A stretch of DNA of 64,000 nucleotides from Streptomyces sp. NBC_00236 (GTDB lineage: Bacteria; Actinomycetota; Actinomycetes; Streptomycetales; Streptomycetaceae): the NCBI RefSeq assembly GCF_036195045.1, contig NZ_CP108100.1, positions 6,944,001 through 7,008,000 on the forward strand, in the 5' to 3' direction. Positions 16,205 through 56,740 of this stretch are shown in pieces (positions within the stretch are counted from its first letter, which is position 1; each line of letters begins with the position of its first letter). Below the pieces are notes generated by a model that worked only from the letters and a program-made list of their open reading frames with translations, had not been told where the DNA came from and searched no databases. The position numbers were made by a program, and so were the translations under genes.

Positions 16205-16395
16205 CCTCGGACTCCCTACGGCCGACGACCATGCGGCCGGCGCCCGGATTCCGGGCCGGCTCCGCTCCGTACCTCCATGCTCCACCAAGAGCGAGGCCTC
16301 GGGGAGGGACTTGGGGCACTTCGCCACTCCGGTCCGCAGGTGTGACCTCCCCGACCGTCTCTCTTGACGGCTGTCCGGGTGCGCCTTAGATTTGC

Positions 16396-16431
16396 TTCCG
16401 TATAGCAGAATCAATCTTCCGTAATGCGGAA
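16396..16431. promoter_or_regulatory. Tandem 15-bp operator pair upstream of gcl (candidate AllR site)
   Basis: Two palindromes, TTCCGTATAGCAGAA (16396-16410) and TTCCGTAATGCGGAA (16417-16431, a perfect TTCCG/CGGAA inverted repeat), lie 21 bp apart start to start, so on the same DNA face. The same pair and spacing occur upstream of hyi and aceB and, in degenerate form, between allR and allB. The site ends 61 bp before the gcl start, a position suited to repression. Confidence 0.75.
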
Positions 16432-16492: not shown

Positions 16493-18277
16493 ATGCCTCG
16501 AATGACCGCTGCCCGAGCGGCAGTTGAGATCCTCAAGCGCGAAGGCGTCAGCAACGCGTTCGGTGTGCCGGGCGCGGCGATCAACCCCTTCTACGCGGCC
16601 CTCAAGGCCTCCGGCGGGGTTCATCACACGCTCGCCCGCCACGTCGAGGGCGCCTCCCACATGGCGGAGGGCTACACCCGGGCCCGCCCGGGGAACATCG
16701 GTGTCTGCATCGGTACGTCGGGACCGGCCGGCACCGACATGATCACCGGCCTCTACTCCGCCATCGCGGACTCCGTCCCGATCCTGTGCATCACCGGCCA
16801 GGCCCCGACCGCGGTGCTCCACAAGGAGGACTTCCAGGCCGTCGACATCGCCTCGATCGCGGGTCCGGTCACGAAGGCGGCCACCACCGTCCTGGAGGCC
16901 GCGCAGGTCCCCGGCGTCTTCCAGCAGGCCTTCCACCTGATGCGCACCGGCCGTCCCGGACCGGTCCTCATCGACCTGCCGATCGACGTGCAGCTCACCG
17001 AGATCGAGTTCGACCCCGATCTGTACGAGCCGCTGCCGGTGCACAAGCCCGCCGCGACCCGCAAGCAGATCGAGCGCGCCCTGGAGATGCTGAACGCCTC
17101 CGAGCGCCCGCTGCTCGTCGCGGGCGGCGGCATCATCAACGCCGACGCACCCGAACTCCTGGTGGAGTTCGCCGAGCTGACCGGCATCCCGGTCGTTCCC
17201 ACCCTGATGGGCTGGGGCATCATCCCGGACGACCACGCGCTCAACGCCGGCATGGTCGGTCTCCAGACCTCGCACCGCTACGGCAACGCGACCTTCCTGG
17301 AGTCCGACTTCGTCCTCGGCATCGGCAACCGCTGGGCCAACCGCCACACCGGCAAGCTGGATGTCTACACCCGGGGCCGGACGTTCGTCCACGTCGACGT
17401 CGAGCCCACCCAGCTGGGCAGGATCTTCGCCCCCGACCTCGGCATCGCCTCCGACGCCAAGGCCGCGCTGGAGCTGTTCATCGAGGTGGCGCGCGAGCTG
17501 AAGGCGGCCGGCAAGCTGAAGGACCGCTCGCGGTGGGCGGCCTCCGCGCAGGAGCGCAGGGCGACGCTCCAGCGGCGCACGCACTTCGACAACGTGCCGC
17601 TGAAGCCGCAGCGCGTGTACGAGGAGATGAACCGGGCGTTCGGCCCCGAGACCCGGTACGTCACCACGATCGGCCTCTCCCAGATCGCCGGCGCGCAGAT
17701 GCTGCACGTCTACCGGCCGCGCCACTGGATCAACTGCGGCCAGGCGGGCCCGCTCGGCTGGACCATCCCGGCCGCCCTGGGCGTCGCGACGGCCGACCCC
17801 GAGGGCTCCGTCGTCGCCCTGTCCGGCGACTACGACTTCCAGTTCATGCTGGAGGAGCTCGCGGTCGGCGCGCAGCACCGCATCCCGTACGTGCACGTCC
17901 TGGTGAACAACTCCTACCTGGGGCTGATCCGCCAGGCGCAGCGCAACTTCGACATCGACTTCCAGGTCAACCTGGAGTTCGAGAACCTCAACTCCCCGGA
18001 GCTGGGCGTCTACGGCGTGGACCACGTCAAGGTCGTCGAGGGCCTGGGATGCAAGGCGATCCGGGTCACCGAGCCGGACCAGCTGCTGCCGGCGTTCGAG
18101 GAGGCCAAGAAGCTGGCCGCGGAGTTCCGGGTGCCGGTGGTGGTCGAGGCGATCCTGGAGCGGGTCACGAACATCGCGATGAGCGGTACGGACATCGCGT
18201 CGGTCAACGAGTTCGAGGACGTGGCGACGGAGCCGGGCCACGCGCCGACGGCGATCCGGCCGTTCGTGAAGGCCTGA
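16493..18277 (+). CDS. gcl: Glyoxylate carboligase (tartronate-semialdehyde synthase)
   Basis: This 594-residue thiamine-diphosphate enzyme condenses two glyoxylates to tartronate semialdehyde and CO2, the step after allantoin breakdown. It follows the E. coli Gcl pattern closely, including [13 protein letters not shown] and [18 protein letters not shown], with Val51 at the place where other ThDP enzymes have the catalytic Glu. The ThDP pyrophosphate motif appears as [21 protein letters not shown] 16493 follows AGGAG. A tandem operator lies just upstream. The rest of the branch (hyi, glxR) is on the opposite strand 3.5 kb away. Confidence 0.96.
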
Positions 18278-21573: not shown

Positions 21574-21616
21574 GGAGCGTAAGTACGCTCCGAACCTGAC
21601 GTCAACAGTTTGTTGA
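21574..21616 (-). promoter_or_regulatory. Catalase promoter region: TCAACA-N3-TGTTGA operator and a second palindrome
   Basis: TCAACA-GTT-TGTTGA (21602-21616) is a perfect 6-3-6 inverted repeat. Read on the minus strand it continues into TTGACG (21605-21600), a good -35 element. The extended 19-mer TTTCAACAAACTGTTGACG differs by one base from the copy before uraD. Downstream, GGAGCGTA-AG-TACGCTCC (21574-21591) is an 8-bp perfect palindrome over the expected -10 region. Confidence 0.7.
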
Positions 21617-21754
21617 AATTCTTGATGGGGGAGGGTGTTCCGGACGGCGCCGGCGCCTGGGCGCGACAGGACAGGTGTCAGCGCCGACGCCGCCCGGAAG
21701 TCTGAGGGCCGGGGGATACGCACCCGGCGGGGTGGTGCCGGCCGGCCCCAGGGC

Positions 21755-21826: not shown

Positions 21827-22726
21827 TCAGTCCTGGACGGACTGGCCGGAGAGGCGCTCCACCGAGCGCAGCAGCGCCGAGTGGTCCAGGCCGCCGTCGC
21901 CCTGCGCGCGCAGCGAGGCGACGAGCTGGGCGACCACGCCGCCGACCGGCAGCGCGGCACCGACGTTGCGGGCGGCGTCCGTGACGATGCCCATGTCCTT
22001 GTGGTGCAGGTCGATCCGGAAGCCGGGAGCGAAGTTCCGGTTCAGGAAGTTGTCCTTCTTGCGGGTCAGCACGGTCGAGCCGGCGAGTCCGCCGTTCAGG
22101 ACGTCCAGCGCGGCGGCGAGATCGACGCCCGACTTCTCCAGGAAGACCACGGCCTCGGCGCAGGCCTGGATGTTGACCGCGACGATCAGCTGGTTGGCCG
22201 CCTTCACCGTCTGGCCCGATCCGTGCGGACCGCAGAGCACGATGGTCTTGCCCAGCGCGTCGAGCACCGGCTTCGCGGCGTCGAAGTCGGCCTGCTCGCC
22301 GCCCACCATGATGGACAGCACGGCCTCGATGGCTCCGGCCTCGCCGCCCGAGACGGGGGCGTCCAGCACCCGGATGCCCTTCTCGGCGGCGTTCTTCGCC
22401 AGGTCCACCGAGGTCTGCGGGGTGATCGAGGACATGTCGACCAGCAGTGCGCCGCGCTTCGCGTTCTCCAGGATGCCCTCGGGGCCGTACGCGATCGCCT
22501 CGACCTGCGGGGAGGCGGGCACCATCGTGATGACCACGTCCGCGTCCTTGACCGCCTCGGCGATCGAGGAGGCGCCGGTGCCGCCGGCCGCGGCCAGCCG
22601 GTCGACCTTGTCCTGCTCCAGGGTGTAACCGGTGACGTCGTAACCGGCCTTGATCAGGTTCTCGGACATGGGCGAGCCCATGATGCCGAGCCCGATCCAC
22701 GCAACCTTGGGGAGGTTGTTGCTCAT
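21827..22726 (-). CDS. glxR: Tartronate-semialdehyde reductase (2-hydroxy-3-oxopropionate reductase)
   Basis: This 299-residue 3-hydroxyisobutyrate-dehydrogenase-type enzyme reduces tartronate semialdehyde to D-glycerate with NAD(P)H. The Rossmann signature is WIGLGIMGSPM, the substrate loop DAPVSGGEAGAIEA, and the catalytic lysine lies in GQTVKAANQLIVAVN. It follows hyi by 48 bp on the same strand and completes the branch started by gcl. The strong hairpin after it ends the operon. Confidence 0.93.
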   Translation of the reverse strand: MSNNLPKVAWIGLGIMGSPMSENLIKAGYDVTGYTLEQDKVDRLAAAGGTGASSIAEAVKDADVVITMVPASPQVEAIAYGPEGILENAKRGALLVDMSSITPQTSVDLAKNAAEKGIRVLDAPVSGGEAGAIEAVLSIMVGGEQADFDAAKPVLDALGKTIVLCGPHGSGQTVKAANQLIVAVNIQACAEAVVFLEKSGVDLAAALDVLNGGLAGSTVLTRKKDNFLNRNFAPGFRIDLHHKDMGIVTDAARNVGAALPVGGVVAQLVASLRAQGDGGLDHSALLRSVERLSGQSVQD

Positions 22727-22774: not shown

Positions 22775-23614
22775 TCAGCGGGCGGCCCGCGCGGTGGCCG
22801 GGAGCCACGCGAAGGACTCGGCGCTCGGCCGGTCGCCCGGCTTGTACTCCAGGCCGACCCAGCCGTCGTAACCGGCCTTCGTCAGCTCGTCGAGCAGCTG
22901 TTCCAGCGGGAGCGAGCCGGTGCCGGGCGCGCCGCGGCCCGGGTTGTCCGCGATCTGGACGTGACCGGTCCGGTCGGCGTAGGCGGAGATGACCTGGCTG
23001 AGGTCCTCGCCGTTCATCGACAGGTGGTACAGGTCCAGCAGGAACTTCGCGTTGCCGAGGCCCGTCGCCGCGTTGACGCGGTCCACGACCTCGATCCCGG
23101 CCGGCGCGCTCACCAGCGGGTAGCGCGGTGACTCCGGCTTGTTCAGGGTCTCGATCAGCAGGACCGCCCCGATCCGGTCGGCCGCGCGGGCGGCGGTGAC
23201 CAGGTTCTCCAGAGCGAGTTCGTCCTGCGCGGCCGGGTCGACACCGTCGACCCGGTTGCCGTAGAGCGCGTTGAGCGCCCTGCAGCCGACCGAGGCGGCG
23301 AAGTCTGCCGCCACCTCGATGTTGGCCCGGAAGCGGTCCGACTCCGTGCCGGGCACGGAGAGAGCGCCGCGGTCGGGGCCGGGCAGCTGTCCGGCGTAGA
23401 AGTTCAGCCCCACCAACTGGGTGCCCGCCTCGTCGAGCGCCTTCTTCAGCGCGTCGAGCTCGGCCTGCGGAGGGGTGGGGGTCTCGATCCACGGCCACCA
23501 CAGCTCGACCGCGGTGAAGCCCGCCGCGGCGGCTGCCGCGGGTCGCTCCAGGAGCGGGAGTTCCGTGAAGAGGATCGAAAGGTTCACATCGAAGCGCTGG
23601 TCCGGGTAGCCCAT
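22775..23614 (-). CDS. hyi: Hydroxypyruvate isomerase
   Basis: This 279-residue TIM-barrel isomerase interconverts hydroxypyruvate and tartronate semialdehyde. The N-terminus FDVNLSILFTELPLLERPAAAAAAGFTAVELWWPW and the later LNFYAGQLPGPDRGALS and QIADNPGRGAPGTGSL are typical of Hyi. The ATG at 23614 has GGAG about 13 nt upstream. It is the first gene of the hyi-glxR operon and is preceded by the same tandem 15-bp operators as gcl. Confidence 0.92.
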   Translation of the reverse strand: MGYPDQRFDVNLSILFTELPLLERPAAAAAAGFTAVELWWPWIETPTPPQAELDALKKALDEAGTQLVGLNFYAGQLPGPDRGALSVPGTESDRFRANIEVAADFAASVGCRALNALYGNRVDGVDPAAQDELALENLVTAARAADRIGAVLLIETLNKPESPRYPLVSAPAGIEVVDRVNAATGLGNAKFLLDLYHLSMNGEDLSQVISAYADRTGHVQIADNPGRGAPGTGSLPLEQLLDELTKAGYDGWVGLEYKPGDRPSAESFAWLPATARAAR

Positions 23615-23631: not shown

Positions 23632-23667
23632 TTCCGTATTGCGGAAGTTAGTTTCTGCTTAACGGAA
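23632..23667. promoter_or_regulatory. Tandem 15-bp operator pair upstream of hyi (candidate AllR site)
   Basis: TTCCGTATTGCGGAA (23632-23646) and TTCTGCTTAACGGAA (23653-23667) are again 21 bp apart. On the minus strand this block aligns with the gcl operator over more than 30 bp, including a shared AGCAGAA. The proximal copy ends 18 bp before the hyi start codon, so bound regulator would block transcription or early elongation. Confidence 0.75.
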
Positions 23668-33186: not shown

Positions 33187-33200
33187 ACATGAACGGAATT

Positions 33201-33241
33201 TCAACAAAGTGTTGACGTGGTGTTGTGGAGGGCGTTAGCTA
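33201..33241 (+). promoter_or_regulatory. Uricase-operon promoter with TCAACA-N3-TGTTGA operator
   Basis: TCAACA-AAG-TGTTGA (33201-33215) is a perfect 6-3-6 palindrome whose right arm overlaps a -35 TTGACG (33212-33217). After an 18-bp spacer comes TAGCTA (33236-33241), a reasonable -10. A bound regulator would occlude the -35. The extended 19-mer TTTCAACAAAGTGTTGACG recurs with one change before the catalase gene. Confidence 0.72.
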
Positions 33242-47378: not shown

Positions 47379-48998
47379 TCAGCGCAGCTGCTCGTACGCC
47401 GGCAGCGTCAGGAAGTCCGCGTAGTCCTGGTCCAGGGAGACCTGGAGCAGGAGGTCGTGGGCCTGCTGCCACTTGCCGGCCGCGAAGGCCTCGTCGCCGA
47501 TCTCGGCGCGGATCGCGGTCAGTTCCTCGGCCGCGACCTTGCGGGCCAGCTCCGCCGTGGCGTGCTCGCCGTTCTCGAAGACCACGTCCGCGTTGATCCA
47601 CTGCCAGATCTGCGAGCGCGAGATCTCGGCGGTGGCCGCGTCCTCCATCAGGTTGAAGATGGCGACCGCGCCCATGCCGCGCAGCCACGCCTCGATGTAG
47701 CGGATGCCGACCGCGACGGCGTTGCGCAGGCCGTCGTACGTGGGCTTGGCGTGCAGGGTGTCGATGGCGATCAGGTCGCCCGCGGCCACCGAGACGTCCT
47801 CGCGCAGGCGCTCCTTCTGGTTCGGCTTCTCGCCGAGGACCGCGTCGAAGGAGGCCATGGCGATCGGGACGAGGTCCGGGTGGGCGACCCAGGAGCCGTC
47901 GAAGCCGTCGCCGGCCTCGCGGTCCTTGTCGGCCTTGACCTTCTCGAAGGCGACCTTGTTGACCTCGGCGTCCCGGCGCGACGGGATGAAGGCCGCCATG
48001 CCGCCGATCGCGTGGGCGCCGCGCTTGTGGCAGGTGCGGACGAGGAGTTCGGTGTACGCCCGCATGAACGGGGCGGTCATCGTCACCGCGTTGCGGTCGG
48101 GCAGGACGAACTTGGAGCCGCCGTCGCGGAAGTTCTTGACGATGGAGAAGAGGTAGTCCCAACGGCCCGCGTTCAGCCCGGAGGCGTGGTCGCGCAGTTC
48201 GTAGAGGATCTCCTCCATCTCGTACGCGGCGGTGATCGTCTCGATCAGGACCGTGGCGCGGACCGTGCCCTGCGGGATGCCGAGCTCGTCCTGGGCGAAG
48301 ACGAAGATGTCGTTCCAGAGGCGGGCCTCCAGGTGCGACTCCGTCTTGGGGAGGTAGAAGTAGGGGCCCTTGCCGAGGTCGATCAGGCGCTGCGCGTTGT
48401 GGAAGAAGTAGAGACCGAAGTCGACCAGCGCGCCGGGCACCGGGGTGCCGTCGAGCTGGAGGTGGCGCTCGTCCAGGTGCCAGCCGCGGGGGCGGGTGAC
48501 GACGGTCGCGAGCTCGTCGGCGGGCTTCAGGGCGTAGGACTTGCCGGACTTCGGGTCGGTGAAGTCGATGGACCGGTTGTACGCGTCGATCAGGTTGAGC
48601 TGGCCGGTGATGACGTTCTCCCACGTCGGAGCGGAGGCGTCCTCGAAGTCGGCGAGCCAGACCTTCGCGCCCGAGTTCAGGGCGTTGATGGTCATCTTGC
48701 GGTCGGTCGGACCGGTGATCTCCACCCGGCGGTCGTTCAGCGCGGCGGGCGCCGGTGCGACCTTCCAGGAGTCGTCCGCACGGATCGCGGCGGTCTCCGG
48801 CAGGAAGTCCAGCGTGGAGGTGCGGGCGATCTCCGCGCGGCGCTCACCGCGCCGGGCGAGCAGCTCGTCACGCCGGGGCGTGAACCGGCGGTGCAGCTCG
48901 GCCACGAACGCGAGGGCCGCGGGGGTGAGGACCTCGTCCTGCCGGGGCAGGGGCTCGGCATCGACGATGGCCAGCGAGGACGGCGCTGGTGCGGACAT
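47379..48998 (-). CDS. aceB: Malate synthase A
   Basis: This 539-residue enzyme condenses glyoxylate with acetyl-CoA to malate. It is of the short A isoform: RRDELLARRGERRAEIA, LADFEDASAPTWENVITGQLNL, PRGWHLDERH, GLNAGRWDYLFSIVKNF, and the C-terminal YADFLTLPAYEQL. No isocitrate lyase gene is nearby. Its upstream region carries both operator types found at the purine genes, so it probably disposes of glyoxylate from allantoin rather than serving only acetate growth. Confidence 0.96.
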   Translation of the reverse strand: MSAPAPSSLAIVDAEPLPRQDEVLTPAALAFVAELHRRFTPRRDELLARRGERRAEIARTSTLDFLPETAAIRADDSWKVAPAPAALNDRRVEITGPTDRKMTINALNSGAKVWLADFEDASAPTWENVITGQLNLIDAYNRSIDFTDPKSGKSYALKPADELATVVTRPRGWHLDERHLQLDGTPVPGALVDFGLYFFHNAQRLIDLGKGPYFYLPKTESHLEARLWNDIFVFAQDELGIPQGTVRATVLIETITAAYEMEEILYELRDHASGLNAGRWDYLFSIVKNFRDGGSKFVLPDRNAVTMTAPFMRAYTELLVRTCHKRGAHAIGGMAAFIPSRRDAEVNKVAFEKVKADKDREAGDGFDGSWVAHPDLVPIAMASFDAVLGEKPNQKERLREDVSVAAGDLIAIDTLHAKPTYDGLRNAVAVGIRYIEAWLRGMGAVAIFNLMEDAATAEISRSQIWQWINADVVFENGEHATAELARKVAAEELTAIRAEIGDEAFAAGKWQQAHDLLLQVSLDQDYADFLTLPAYEQLR

Positions 48999-49120: not shown

Positions 49121-49173
49121 TTCTGACCAGTGGATAGTAGTTTCCTCATGGTGGAAGTTCAATGGTTTGTTGA
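49121..49173 (-). promoter_or_regulatory. Composite operator region upstream of aceB
   Basis: TTCTGACCAGTGGAT (49121-49135) and TTCCTCATGGTGGAA (49142-49156) repeat the gcl/hyi architecture with the same 21-bp step. Directly beyond lies TCAATG-GTT-TGTTGA (49159-49173), a two-mismatch copy of the uricase/catalase palindrome. The region ends 123 to 175 bp before the aceB start, so a long leader or another promoter position must be assumed. Confidence 0.6.
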
Positions 49174-54269: not shown

Positions 54270-55070
54270 TCAGCCGGCCGACCCGCTGCTGGCCAGCGCC
54301 TCGGACAGTTCCTTCGCGGCCTGCTGGAGGATCGGCACAATGCGCTCGGTCGCCGCCTCGGTCACCCGGCCCGCCGGCCCGGAGATCGAGATCGCCGCGG
54401 AGGTGGGGGAGTTGGGGACCGGGACCGCCAGGCAGCGGACCCCTATCTCCTGCTCGTTGTCGTCCACCGCGTAGCCCACCCGGCGGACCTGCTCCAGGGC
54501 GTCCAGGAAGCCGTCCGGGGTGGTGATCGTCTTCTCGGTGGCGGCCGGCATCCCGGTCCGTGCGAGCAGGGCCCGCACCTCGTCCGGCGGGGTGTGCGCC
54601 AGCAGCGCCTTGCCCACTCCGGTGGAGTGCGGCAGCACCCGGCGGCCCACCTCGGTGAACATGCGCATGGAGTGCTTGGACGGCACCTGGGCCACGTACA
54701 CGATCTCGTCGCCGTCGAGCAGGGCCATGTTGGCCGTCTCGCCGGTCTCCTCGACCAGCCGGGCCAGGTACGGGCGGGCCCAGGTGCCGAGCAGCCGCGA
54801 GGCGGACTCCCCGAGCCGGATCAGCCGCGGGCCGAGCGCATAGCGCCGGTTGGGCTGCTGGCGTACGTAACCGCACACGACGAGCGTGCGCATCAGCCGG
54901 TGAATGGTGGGCAGCGGAAGCCCGCTGCTCGCGGAGAGCTCGCTCAGGCCGACCTCGCCCCCCGCGTCGGCCATCCGCTCCAGCAGATCGAAGGCGCGCT
55001 CAAGGGACTGCACACCACCGCTGGAACCGGCGGACTTGGAGTCGGAAGTGCTGGCGTGGGACGGCGGCAC
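54270..55070 (-). CDS. allR: IclR-family regulator, AllR-like
   Basis: This 266-residue IclR regulator has an N-terminal winged helix (about residues 20-85: VQSLERAFDLLERMADAGGEVGLSELSASSGLPLPTIHRLMRTLVVCGYVRQ) and an effector domain (MALLDGDEIVYVAQVPSKHSMR, HSTGVGKALLA, RRVGYAVDDNEQEIGVRCLAVPV). The GTG at 55070 follows AAGGACC; 55100 is an alternative. It is divergent from allB, the same setting as S. coelicolor AllR, which represses allantoin genes and (from memory) releases DNA with allantoate or glyoxylate. Likely targets are gcl, hyi, aceB and allB. Confidence 0.88.
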   Translation of the reverse strand: MPPSHASTSDSKSAGSSGGVQSLERAFDLLERMADAGGEVGLSELSASSGLPLPTIHRLMRTLVVCGYVRQQPNRRYALGPRLIRLGESASRLLGTWARPYLARLVEETGETANMALLDGDEIVYVAQVPSKHSMRMFTEVGRRVLPHSTGVGKALLAHTPPDEVRALLARTGMPAATEKTITTPDGFLDALEQVRRVGYAVDDNEQEIGVRCLAVPVPNSPTSAAISISGPAGRVTEAATERIVPILQQAAKELSEALASSGSAG

Positions 55071-55235
55071 GTCAACGGTCCTTTCGAAGCGGAAGAGCAA
55101 GGCAGCAGCCTACCGGGCACTTCCCGATCGGCCCACTGTCGCAGGGGCACCGTCCTGGCCGGTCAGGGCTCGTTTGTCCCGGTGTCCGGGGCCGGCCCGA
55201 CGGTCCGTGCGGTGCCACGTATGGCCCATTCTACA

Positions 55236-55271
55236 TTCCGCACTACGAAATATGACTTTTACTTTGTGGAA
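55236..55271. promoter_or_regulatory. Degenerate tandem operator between allR and allB
   Basis: TTCCGCACTACGAAA (55236-55250) has one mismatch to TTCYG-N5-YGGAA. Exactly 21 bp further, TTTTACTTTGTGGAA (55257-55271) keeps the right arm only. The conserved spacing is the reason for calling it. It lies in the shared upstream region, so it could serve autoregulation of allR and repression of allB. Confidence 0.5.
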
Positions 55272-55358: not shown

Positions 55359-55375
55359 TTCAACAGTTCGTTGAA
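55359..55375 (+). promoter_or_regulatory. TTCAAC-N5-GTTGAA palindrome before allB
   Basis: TTCAAC-AGTTC-GTTGAA is a perfect 6-5-6 palindrome ending 21 bp before the allB start. It matches the uricase and catalase operator with one base difference in the inner arm. A possible -35 TTGACG lies at 55328-55333, so the site would cover the transcription start region. Confidence 0.6.
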
Positions 55376-55396: not shown

Positions 55397-56740
55397 GTGT
55401 CCGGTACGGACGTGAAGCTGGTTCTGCGCTCGACGCGCGTCGTCACCCCCGGGGGCACCCGGCCCGCCGCGGTCCATGTCACCGGCGCGACGATCGACGC
55501 CGTCCTGCCGTACGACGCCGAGGTGCCGGAGGGGGCCCGGGTGGAGGACTTCGGCGACGACGTCCTGCTGCCCGGACTCGTGGACACGCACGTCCATGTG
55601 AACGATCCCGGCCGAACCGAGTGGGAGGGGTTCTACACCGCCACCCGCGCCGCCGCGGCCGGCGGGATCACCACACTGCTCGACATGCCGCTCAACTCCC
55701 TCCCGCCGACCACCACCGTCGAGCACCTGCGCGTCAAGCAGCAGGTGGCGGCCCCCAAGGTGCACGTCGACACCGGCTTCTGGGGCGGCGCCATCCCCTC
55801 CAACGTCAAGGACCTGCGCCCGTTGTACGAGGCCGGGGTCTTCGGCTTCAAGTGCTTCCTCTCGCCCTCCGGCGTCGAGGAGTTCCCCGAGCTCGACCAG
55901 GAGCAGCTGGCCCGGTCGATGGCCGAGATCGCGGGCTTCGGCGGCCTCCTGATCGTGCACGCCGAGGACCCGCACCACCTGGCGTCCGCGCCGCAGCGCA
56001 GCGGCCCGGCGTACGCCGACTTCCTCGCCTCCCGGCCGCGCGACGCCGAGAACACCGCGATCGAGGGCCTCATCGCCCACGCGAAGCGGCTGAACGCACG
56101 CATCCACATCCTGCACCTCTCCTCCAGTGACGCACTGCCGCTGATCGCCGCCGCCAAGCGCGAGGGTGTCCGCGTCACCGTCGAGTCCTGCCCGCACTTC
56201 CTCACCCTCACCGCCGAGGAAGTCCCGGACGGGGCCACCGAGTTCAAATGCTGCCCGCCCATCCGTGAGGCCGCCAACCAGGACGCGCTGTGGCAGGGAC
56301 TCGCCGACGGCACCATCGACTGCATCGTCTCCGACCACTCGCCCTGCACCACGGACCTCAAGACGCCGGACTTCGCCTCGGCCTGGGGCGGCATCTCCTC
56401 CCTCCAGCTCGGCCTGCCCGCCATCTGGACCGAGGCCCGCAGGCGTGGCCACAGCCTCGACGACGTCGCCCGCTGGATGTCGGCCGCCCCCGCCGAACTG
56501 GCCGGACTGACCGCCAAGGGCGCGATCGAGGCCGGACGCGACGCCGACTTCGCGGTCCTCGCGCCCGACGCCACCTTCACCGTCGACCCGGCCGAACTCT
56601 TCCACCGCAACCAGGTCACCGCATACGCCGGCCGGACCCTGCACGGCGTCGTGCGCTCGACCTGGCTGCGCGGCGTACGCATCGCCACCGAAGGCACCCT
56701 CGCCGAGCCCACCGGCCGCCTCCAGACAAGGAAGCACTGA
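55397..56740 (+). CDS. allB: Allantoinase
   Basis: This 447-residue cyclic amidohydrolase opens allantoin to allantoate. Metal-site motifs are [13 protein letters not shown], the carbamylated-lysine region [35 protein letters not shown] and [14 protein letters not shown], in AllB order. GTG 55397 follows GGGGAG at 6-nt spacing and is preferred to ATG 55379, which overlaps the operator region and has no site. Allantoicase follows after 2 bp. The divergent allR is the likely repressor. Confidence 0.95.

Follow-up and report, generated by a model that had tools for sequence, protein, structure and literature searches.

A 21-bp-phased double operator at allantoin and glyoxylate genes of Streptomyces sp. 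NBC_00236 and its recurrence upstream of a DUF6986 gene

Described IclR-type systems and the paired operators

Allantoate may be an effector of AllR. In S. coelicolor, AllR is reportedly an IclR-family repressor of allantoin pathway genes, as Navone and co-workers are said to have described in 2015. The regulon analyzed here is probably largely known from that species; a DUF6986 gene and a second palindrome, both described below, go beyond it. E. coli AllR and IclR resemble the present system in their glyoxylate/allantoin regulons, and their DNA binding is decreased by glyoxylate, as is that of BhcR, which controls the beta-hydroxyaspartate cycle of Paracoccus denitrificans and for which one palindrome upstream of the -35 region has been proposed (passages of PMC11323563). 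The glyoxylate-binding residues of E. coli IclR are given there as Gly160, Ala161, Asp212, Ser239 and Ser241 (PMC11323563). A survey of IclR-family regulators describes group-1 palindromes of the form WTTYCRYW3RYGRAAW and, in 94 orthologous groups, tandem sites with 18-22 nt, mainly 19-21 nt, between centres (PMC8222616). It proposes tetramers with their dimers on one helix face, and reports three-box motifs with alternating half-sites in 32 groups. The operators of E. coli AllR and IclR, listed in a table of the same survey as KTTGGAAWAWTWTTCCAAC and TGGAAATNATTTCCA, are of another type.

The window analyzed here, the whole stretch of 64,000 nucleotides from Streptomyces sp. NBC_00236, contains four loci that an earlier note, made from the sequence, had assigned to steps of allantoin or glyoxylate use or to their IclR regulator. 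NCBIfam and Pfam models agree with this assignment, hyi scoring below the cut-off of its best NCBIfam model:

16493..18277, + strand: gcl, glyoxylate carboligase (TIGR01504, 1187 bits, cut-off 711)
21827..22726, - strand: glxR, 2-hydroxy-3-oxopropionate (tartronate semialdehyde) reductase (TIGR01505, 483 bits, cut-off 341)
22775..23614, - strand: hyi, hydroxypyruvate isomerase (TIGR03234, 313.6 bits, cut-off 353)
47379..48998, - strand: aceB, malate synthase A (TIGR01344, 844 bits, cut-off 595)
54270..55100, - strand: allR, IclR-family regulator (PF01614 and PF09339; start codon uncertain)
55397..56740, + strand: allB, allantoinase (TIGR03178, 616 bits, cut-off 358; start codon uncertain)

At each of these loci, two 15-bp palindromes with starts 21 bp apart had been reported, and all eight were found in place:

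16396..16431, + strand: gcl tandem operator, boxes 16396-16410 and 16417-16431, step 21
23632..23667, - strand: hyi-glxR tandem operator, starts 23632 and 23653, step 21, its end 17 bp upstream of the hyi ATG
49121..49156, - strand: aceB tandem operator, starts 49121 and 49142, step 21
55236..55271, no strand assigned: allR-allB tandem operator, starts 55236 and 55257, step 21, between the divergent allR and allB
16364..16392, + strand: putative gcl promoter TTGACG-N17-TAGATT, recognized by eye, ending 3 bp upstream of the gcl operator

The operator array can be written as TTCCG-N5-CGGAA-N6-TTCCG-N5-CGGAA, that is, as four half-sites (TTCCG/CGGAA) in alternating direction that read as two palindromes 21 bp apart. 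The half-site centres are spaced 10, 11 and 10 bp, and all of them therefore lie on the same side of the helix. The form TTCYG-N5-YGGAA that had been given for the boxes holds for both gcl and both hyi boxes (on either strand), but the aceB pair departs from it at two positions and the allR-allB pair at three. These two pairs are weak sites. Compared with the IclR group-1 consensus (TTYCRYW3RYGRAA, 15 positions), the eight boxes match at 14, 15, 15, 14, 10, 13, 14 and 14 positions, the first aceB box being the poorest with 10 of 15, while a random 15-mer at 71% G+C reaches 12 of 15 in 0.02% of cases. The box arms carry 1.81-1.92 bits per column, compared with 0.61-1.19 in the flanks.

The spacing between box centres is 21 nt at all four window loci and at the DUF6986 gene, within the 18-22 nt by which IclR group-1 tandem sites are defined. 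Compared with the tandem operators presented in the survey (PMC8222616), we see no difference of principle; the present system has the complete pair, with one exact spacing, at all five targets. A spacing of two turns is general among IclR-type sites and not peculiar to the glyoxylate/allantoin regulon. The paired operator is a clear and well-conserved phased example of the IclR type, and could serve to test tetramer cooperativity by helical phasing.

Specificity and conservation of the pair

Exact single palindromes were found at 25 distinct places in the 8.33-Mb genome (32 rows counted by strand; backward control 12), so that one box means little and the single palindrome was rejected as evidence. 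A pair with up to three mismatches was found at only nine genome places (12 rows counted by strand; control 3), namely the four window loci, the DUF6986 gene, a malic-enzyme-like gene (weak) and three others that we take for chance. We also built a profile, R1, for the 36-bp pair; its training set comprised 45 operators, drawn from five gene groups, together with their reverse complements. At E<=3, R1 yielded only five genome places, hyi (1.7e-5), gcl (1.4e-4), aceB (0.022), allR-allB (0.05) and DUF6986 (0.12), four of these five operators having been in the training set as the genome's own contribution. The genome scan for pairs with a 21-bp step, a check proposed in the earlier note, thus produced no crowd of sites at unrelated genes. 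Among the matches listed, 59 of 61 same-genus genomes had at least one R1 match at E<=1 under stricter filters; the other two (G043 and G035) had none at this threshold among the matches listed, and G035 still has a pair with step 21 before allR.

The malic-enzyme-like gene (PRK12861, 369 bits, under the cut-off) has a degenerate tandem site upstream, at genome place 3017330-3017365 (locus L013). It is doubtful as a sixth target: step 21 was the best in 11 of 30 genomes, some of the sites being weak and several genomes having none, and the gene is absent from the R1 list at E<=3.

We also note some R1 matches in single other genomes, with neighbouring genes identified by eye. AllR-type pairs precede short-chain-dehydrogenase-like genes in G033 (L298) and G040 (L301), and forms CGGAA-N6-TTCCG lie near dctA-, kdpA- and acyl-CoA-synthetase-like genes.

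In order to follow the pair in relatives, upstream regions of gcl, hyi, aceB, the DUF6986 gene and the malic-enzyme-like gene were collected from 30 same-genus genomes, the best DUF6986 matches among 61 sampled. The box matrix used for scoring was derived solely from allR-allB sites, and steps between 12 and 45 were all allowed. Step 21 gave the best pair in 26 of 28 loci for gcl and 28 of 30 for DUF6986 (in both cases, the other two are cut at contig ends), in 28 of 28 for hyi, and in 28 of 30 for aceB, although these genomes are mutually related and the counts are not independent. One of the 28 aceB pairs is weak, and the two exceptions are a step of 28 with a 7-bp insertion and a paralogue. 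Genomes G003 and G026 had no gcl or hyi match at the thresholds used (28 of 30 genomes matched); both retain the pairs at aceB and DUF6986, the weak one at aceB being that of G026. The distance from operator to first matched codon ranges over 32-131 bp for gcl, 10-90 bp for hyi, 53-189 bp for aceB and 15-30 bp for DUF6986. Since this gap varies, simple sequence inertia does not account for the constant 21 bp. Orthologous upstream regions, which the earlier note had suggested for comparison, thus keep both pair and step in Streptomyces relatives.

For allR-allB itself, 80 named loci were inspected, of which 78 are titled Streptomyces. By a crude 10-letter score, step 21 was the best of all steps in 52, and 78 reached at least 14 when step 21 was imposed. 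Many of the best pairs with other steps appeared to combine one real box with noise, and the crude score was therefore replaced by the matrix, which was trained on the 78 allR-allB loci with pairs picked at step 21. As a consequence, the allR-allB spacing is not independent evidence, whereas the spacing at the other genes is. Of 15 genomes that are more diverged, 11 have step 21 as the best upstream of allR; G043, G037 and G060 have an AllR orthologue with no site upstream, and G045 has a partial one. Upstream of allR in L071 and L085, strong pairs with steps 16 and 18 stand beside the usual 21-bp pair.

Promoter geometry and the candidate regulator

The best explanation for the four pairs, and a probable one, is that the local IclR-family repressor, AllR, uses them as its operators. 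A tetramer of AllR, with two dimers side by side, would occupy the pair, and bound AllR would cover the -10/start region, so that transcription would be blocked. Glyoxylate, and perhaps allantoate, would loosen AllR, and allantoinase, the glycerate route (gcl, hyi, glxR), malate synthase and AllR itself would be induced together.

The position of the operators relative to promoter elements was judged by eye in aligned upstream regions. A TTGAC-like -35 and a TA..T-like -10 element lie directly upstream of the operator at gcl, hyi (with a weak -10) and DUF6986; at gcl, the majority consensus across 26 aligned loci is ttgacg / Ta.atT. At aceB, TTGAAC lies ahead of the first box, and the -10-like sequence, a conserved TA.TAT, shares positions with the 6-bp spacer and with the beginning of the second box. 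At allR-allB, no promoter elements were recognized in the aligned upstream regions. At four of the five targets, gcl, hyi, aceB and DUF6986, the operator overlaps a TTGAC-like promoter or follows it closely. A protein bound there would block transcription, and this geometry is compatible with a repressor acting by covering the -10/start region.

The same overlap with promoter elements, including that of the aceB -10-like element with the spacer, would also be expected if each pair consisted of two independent single operators, their spacing being kept by promoter geometry or history and not by contact between dimers. The conserved sequence of the hyi and aceB spacers (1.51 and 1.61 bits) points the same way. 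Nevertheless, we regard this as unlikely, because 21 bp recurs at five promoters of differing layout, and because the spacer at gcl varies freely in sequence (0.48 bits) yet not in length across the 26 readable loci.

As to the identity of the protein, AllR carries the IclR helix-turn-helix (PF09339) and effector (PF01614) domains. Its closest NCBIfam model is BhcR, with 206.7 bits against a cut-off of 350. With 120 bits, it misses the cut-off of 406 of the E. coli AllR equivalog NF007548 and therefore does not belong to the orthologous group of E. coli AllR, although in role it appears to be like that protein. It is related in sequence to E. coli AllR (PDB 1tf1) and IclR (PDB 2o99). Four of the five residues that contact the glyoxylate oxygens in E. 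coli IclR are identical in AllR, with Val in place of Ala161, when mapped by eye on the alignment. These retained residues, together with glyoxylate release in IclR, AllR of E. coli and BhcR, make it likely that AllR, too, is released by glyoxylate.

Streptomyces hold many IclR proteins, and the pairs might be bound by another IclR-family paralogue, or by AllR together with another protein, AllR merely being encoded beside one of the pairs. Genomes that keep AllR with no site upstream of allR would be compatible with such an arrangement. We give it a small probability: in most loci AllR has a site within its own divergent promoter, genomes yielded a single AllR orthologue each at the threshold applied, and an AllR-like gene is present in two of the four clear pair-bearing loci of other families (see below). 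Co-occurrence of AllR and site within the genus was uninformative, because AllR is nearly universal (60 of the 61 sampled genomes have one match each at the threshold used, the exception being a genome that is 82% complete) and its presence cannot prove that it is the binder. That the pairs are an effect of chance or base composition can practically be dismissed: single palindromes are frequent and three of the nine loose pair matches look like chance, but the 8.33-Mb genome has five places on the R1 list, of which four lie at known genes of a single pathway, controls are lower, and the pair is conserved in relatives.

Returning to AllR as the preferred binder, the claim that one IclR-type protein jointly controls the four loci is supported by the genome-wide specificity, the retention of pair and step, the agreement with the IclR group-1 consensus and spacing, and the site between allR and allB. 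It is strongly suggested that AllR would bind all five operators, and it may do so cooperatively at each pair.

DUF6986 and a second palindrome

The fifth tandem operator lies at genome place 518921-518956 (L010, 1501-1536), 6.4 Mb from the gcl gene of the window in the record. It starts 62 bp upstream of the first matched DUF6986 codon, downstream of etfB-/etfA-like genes (identified by eye) that run in the same direction. The protein scores 628 bits with PF22484 and 23.4 bits with PF03328, under the gathering cut-off of 25. Under the term DUF6986, no function was found described in the literature searched, where other names may exist. The single sequence found no solved relative, but a profile of 45 homologues (A2) matches malyl-CoA lyase 4l9y over part of the protein (E 2.2e-5). 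The stretch aligned to 4l9y contains E227 and D261, invariant in the 45 homologues, which we take to be residues of the metal-binding type. The protein thus distantly resembles the HpcH/HpaI-CitE-malyl-CoA lyase superfamily and may be a remote member.

Outside Streptomyces, the neighbourhood of the gene is informative. In a sample of 296 genomes over the phylum, 100 pass the DUF6986 family cut-off, most of them through a short stretch. A near full-length match is present in 25, 16 of them outside the genus, and 15 of these 16 neighbourhoods were fetched. At least one of uricase, OHCU decarboxylase, allantoinase and allantoicase is present in 14 of the 15, and the fifteenth, at a contig end, holds ureABC. 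The order allB-alc-OHCU-uricase-DUF6986 is found in six (L384, L385, L386, L388, L389 and L390), and a HIUase gene precedes DUF6986 in L391. DUF6986 adjoins aceB in G068, with an AllR-like gene nearby, and adjoins an AllR-like gene in G101 and G346. No AllA was found among ten proteins from these neighbourhoods compared with Pfam.

A clear pair, with steps 12-45 allowed, was present in four of the 15 loci outside the genus: L379 (score 18.1), L381 (32.8) and L392 (39.5) with step 21, and L383 (19.2) with step 20. Three of the 15 loci exceeded a score of 15, compared with a mean of 0.33 and a maximum of 4 in a control with 100 permuted matrices, the score by itself being soft across families. 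L378, which has an AllR-like gene and a step of 21, was not accepted as positive, since its score of 10.5 does not stand out from those of the ten pairless loci, which reach 14.1. AllR-like genes occur only in L378, L383 and L392, that is, in two of the four loci with a clear pair and in none of the ten pairless loci.

The AllR-type operator leads us to predict that DUF6986 takes part in ureide/glyoxylate use. Uricase and allantoinase neighbours, together with the likeness to malyl-CoA lyase, suggest that it may act on glyoxylate or ureidoglycolate, and two readings are compatible with this: it may be a glyoxylate-condensing enzyme or it may carry out a ureidoglycolate step. The malate synthase gene beside DUF6986 in G068 argues mildly against a plain malate synthase. 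In this way, a widespread domain of unknown function gains an area of function from a control site that singles out one pathway within an 8-Mb genome.

A second palindrome, TTCAACA-N3-YGTTGA, was found at four places:

21601-21617 of the window: before catalase, conserved in relatives
33200-33216 of the window: before the OHCU decarboxylase-uricase operon, conserved in relatives
55359..55375 of the window, no strand assigned: TTCAACA-N3-YGTTGA(A) beside allB; TCAAC-N5-GTTGA is present in 79 of 80 allR-allB loci
785470 of the genome (L343, 1501-1516): 61 bp before the urease gamma gene ureA

With at most one mismatch, the window holds three places (6 rows counted by strand; 0.02 expected). In its perfect form, the palindrome occurs at four genome places, which are those before urease, catalase and the uricase operon and beside allB; with one mismatch, there are 22 rows counted by strand genome-wide versus 6 in the control. 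In relatives, 25 of 28 stretches downstream of glxR contain TCAAC-N5-GTTGA; the start of catalase was visible in 23 of these 28. Of 13 stretches fetched for OHCU decarboxylase, 12 included that gene, and all 12 have the motif before it. Upstream of gcl and hyi the motif was found in none of 28 each, and upstream of aceB and DUF6986 in one of 30 each. A limited literature search found no paper on this palindrome.

By this distribution, one protein would appear to act on the urate-to-urea genes and a different one on the glyoxylate genes, both boxes being present at allB; Streptomyces may thus split urate-to-urea conversion and glyoxylate disposal between two switches. Taken together, DUF6986 may be an unrecognized actinobacterial enzyme of purine/ureide breakdown, malyl-CoA-lyase-like and active in glyoxylate C-C condensation or in the step from ureidoglycolate to glyoxylate. 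It would be tied to the pathway in Streptomyces by the AllR double operator, though encoded far from the pathway genes, and close allB-alc-OHCU decarboxylase-uricase operons in Euzebya, Egibacter and others, while a second, unnamed regulator would act through TTCAACA-N3-YGTTGA at urease, catalase, the uricase operon and allB, so that allB would integrate both switches. We give this joint reading about an even chance of being right.

Two further arrangements were seen outside the genome of the window. Upstream of catalase in other genomes (L165-L168 and L170-L179, about 10 of 23 readable), there is a half-site array such as CTCCACAAAGCGGAA-N6-TTCCGC, which was not seen in the genome analyzed here and which resembles the published three-box IclR motifs (PMC8222616). 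G144, a genome of another family, has both the second palindrome and, next to it, a 21-bp AllR-type pair in front of uricase (L381, 11822 and 11861), and the two switches may therefore be divided differently there.
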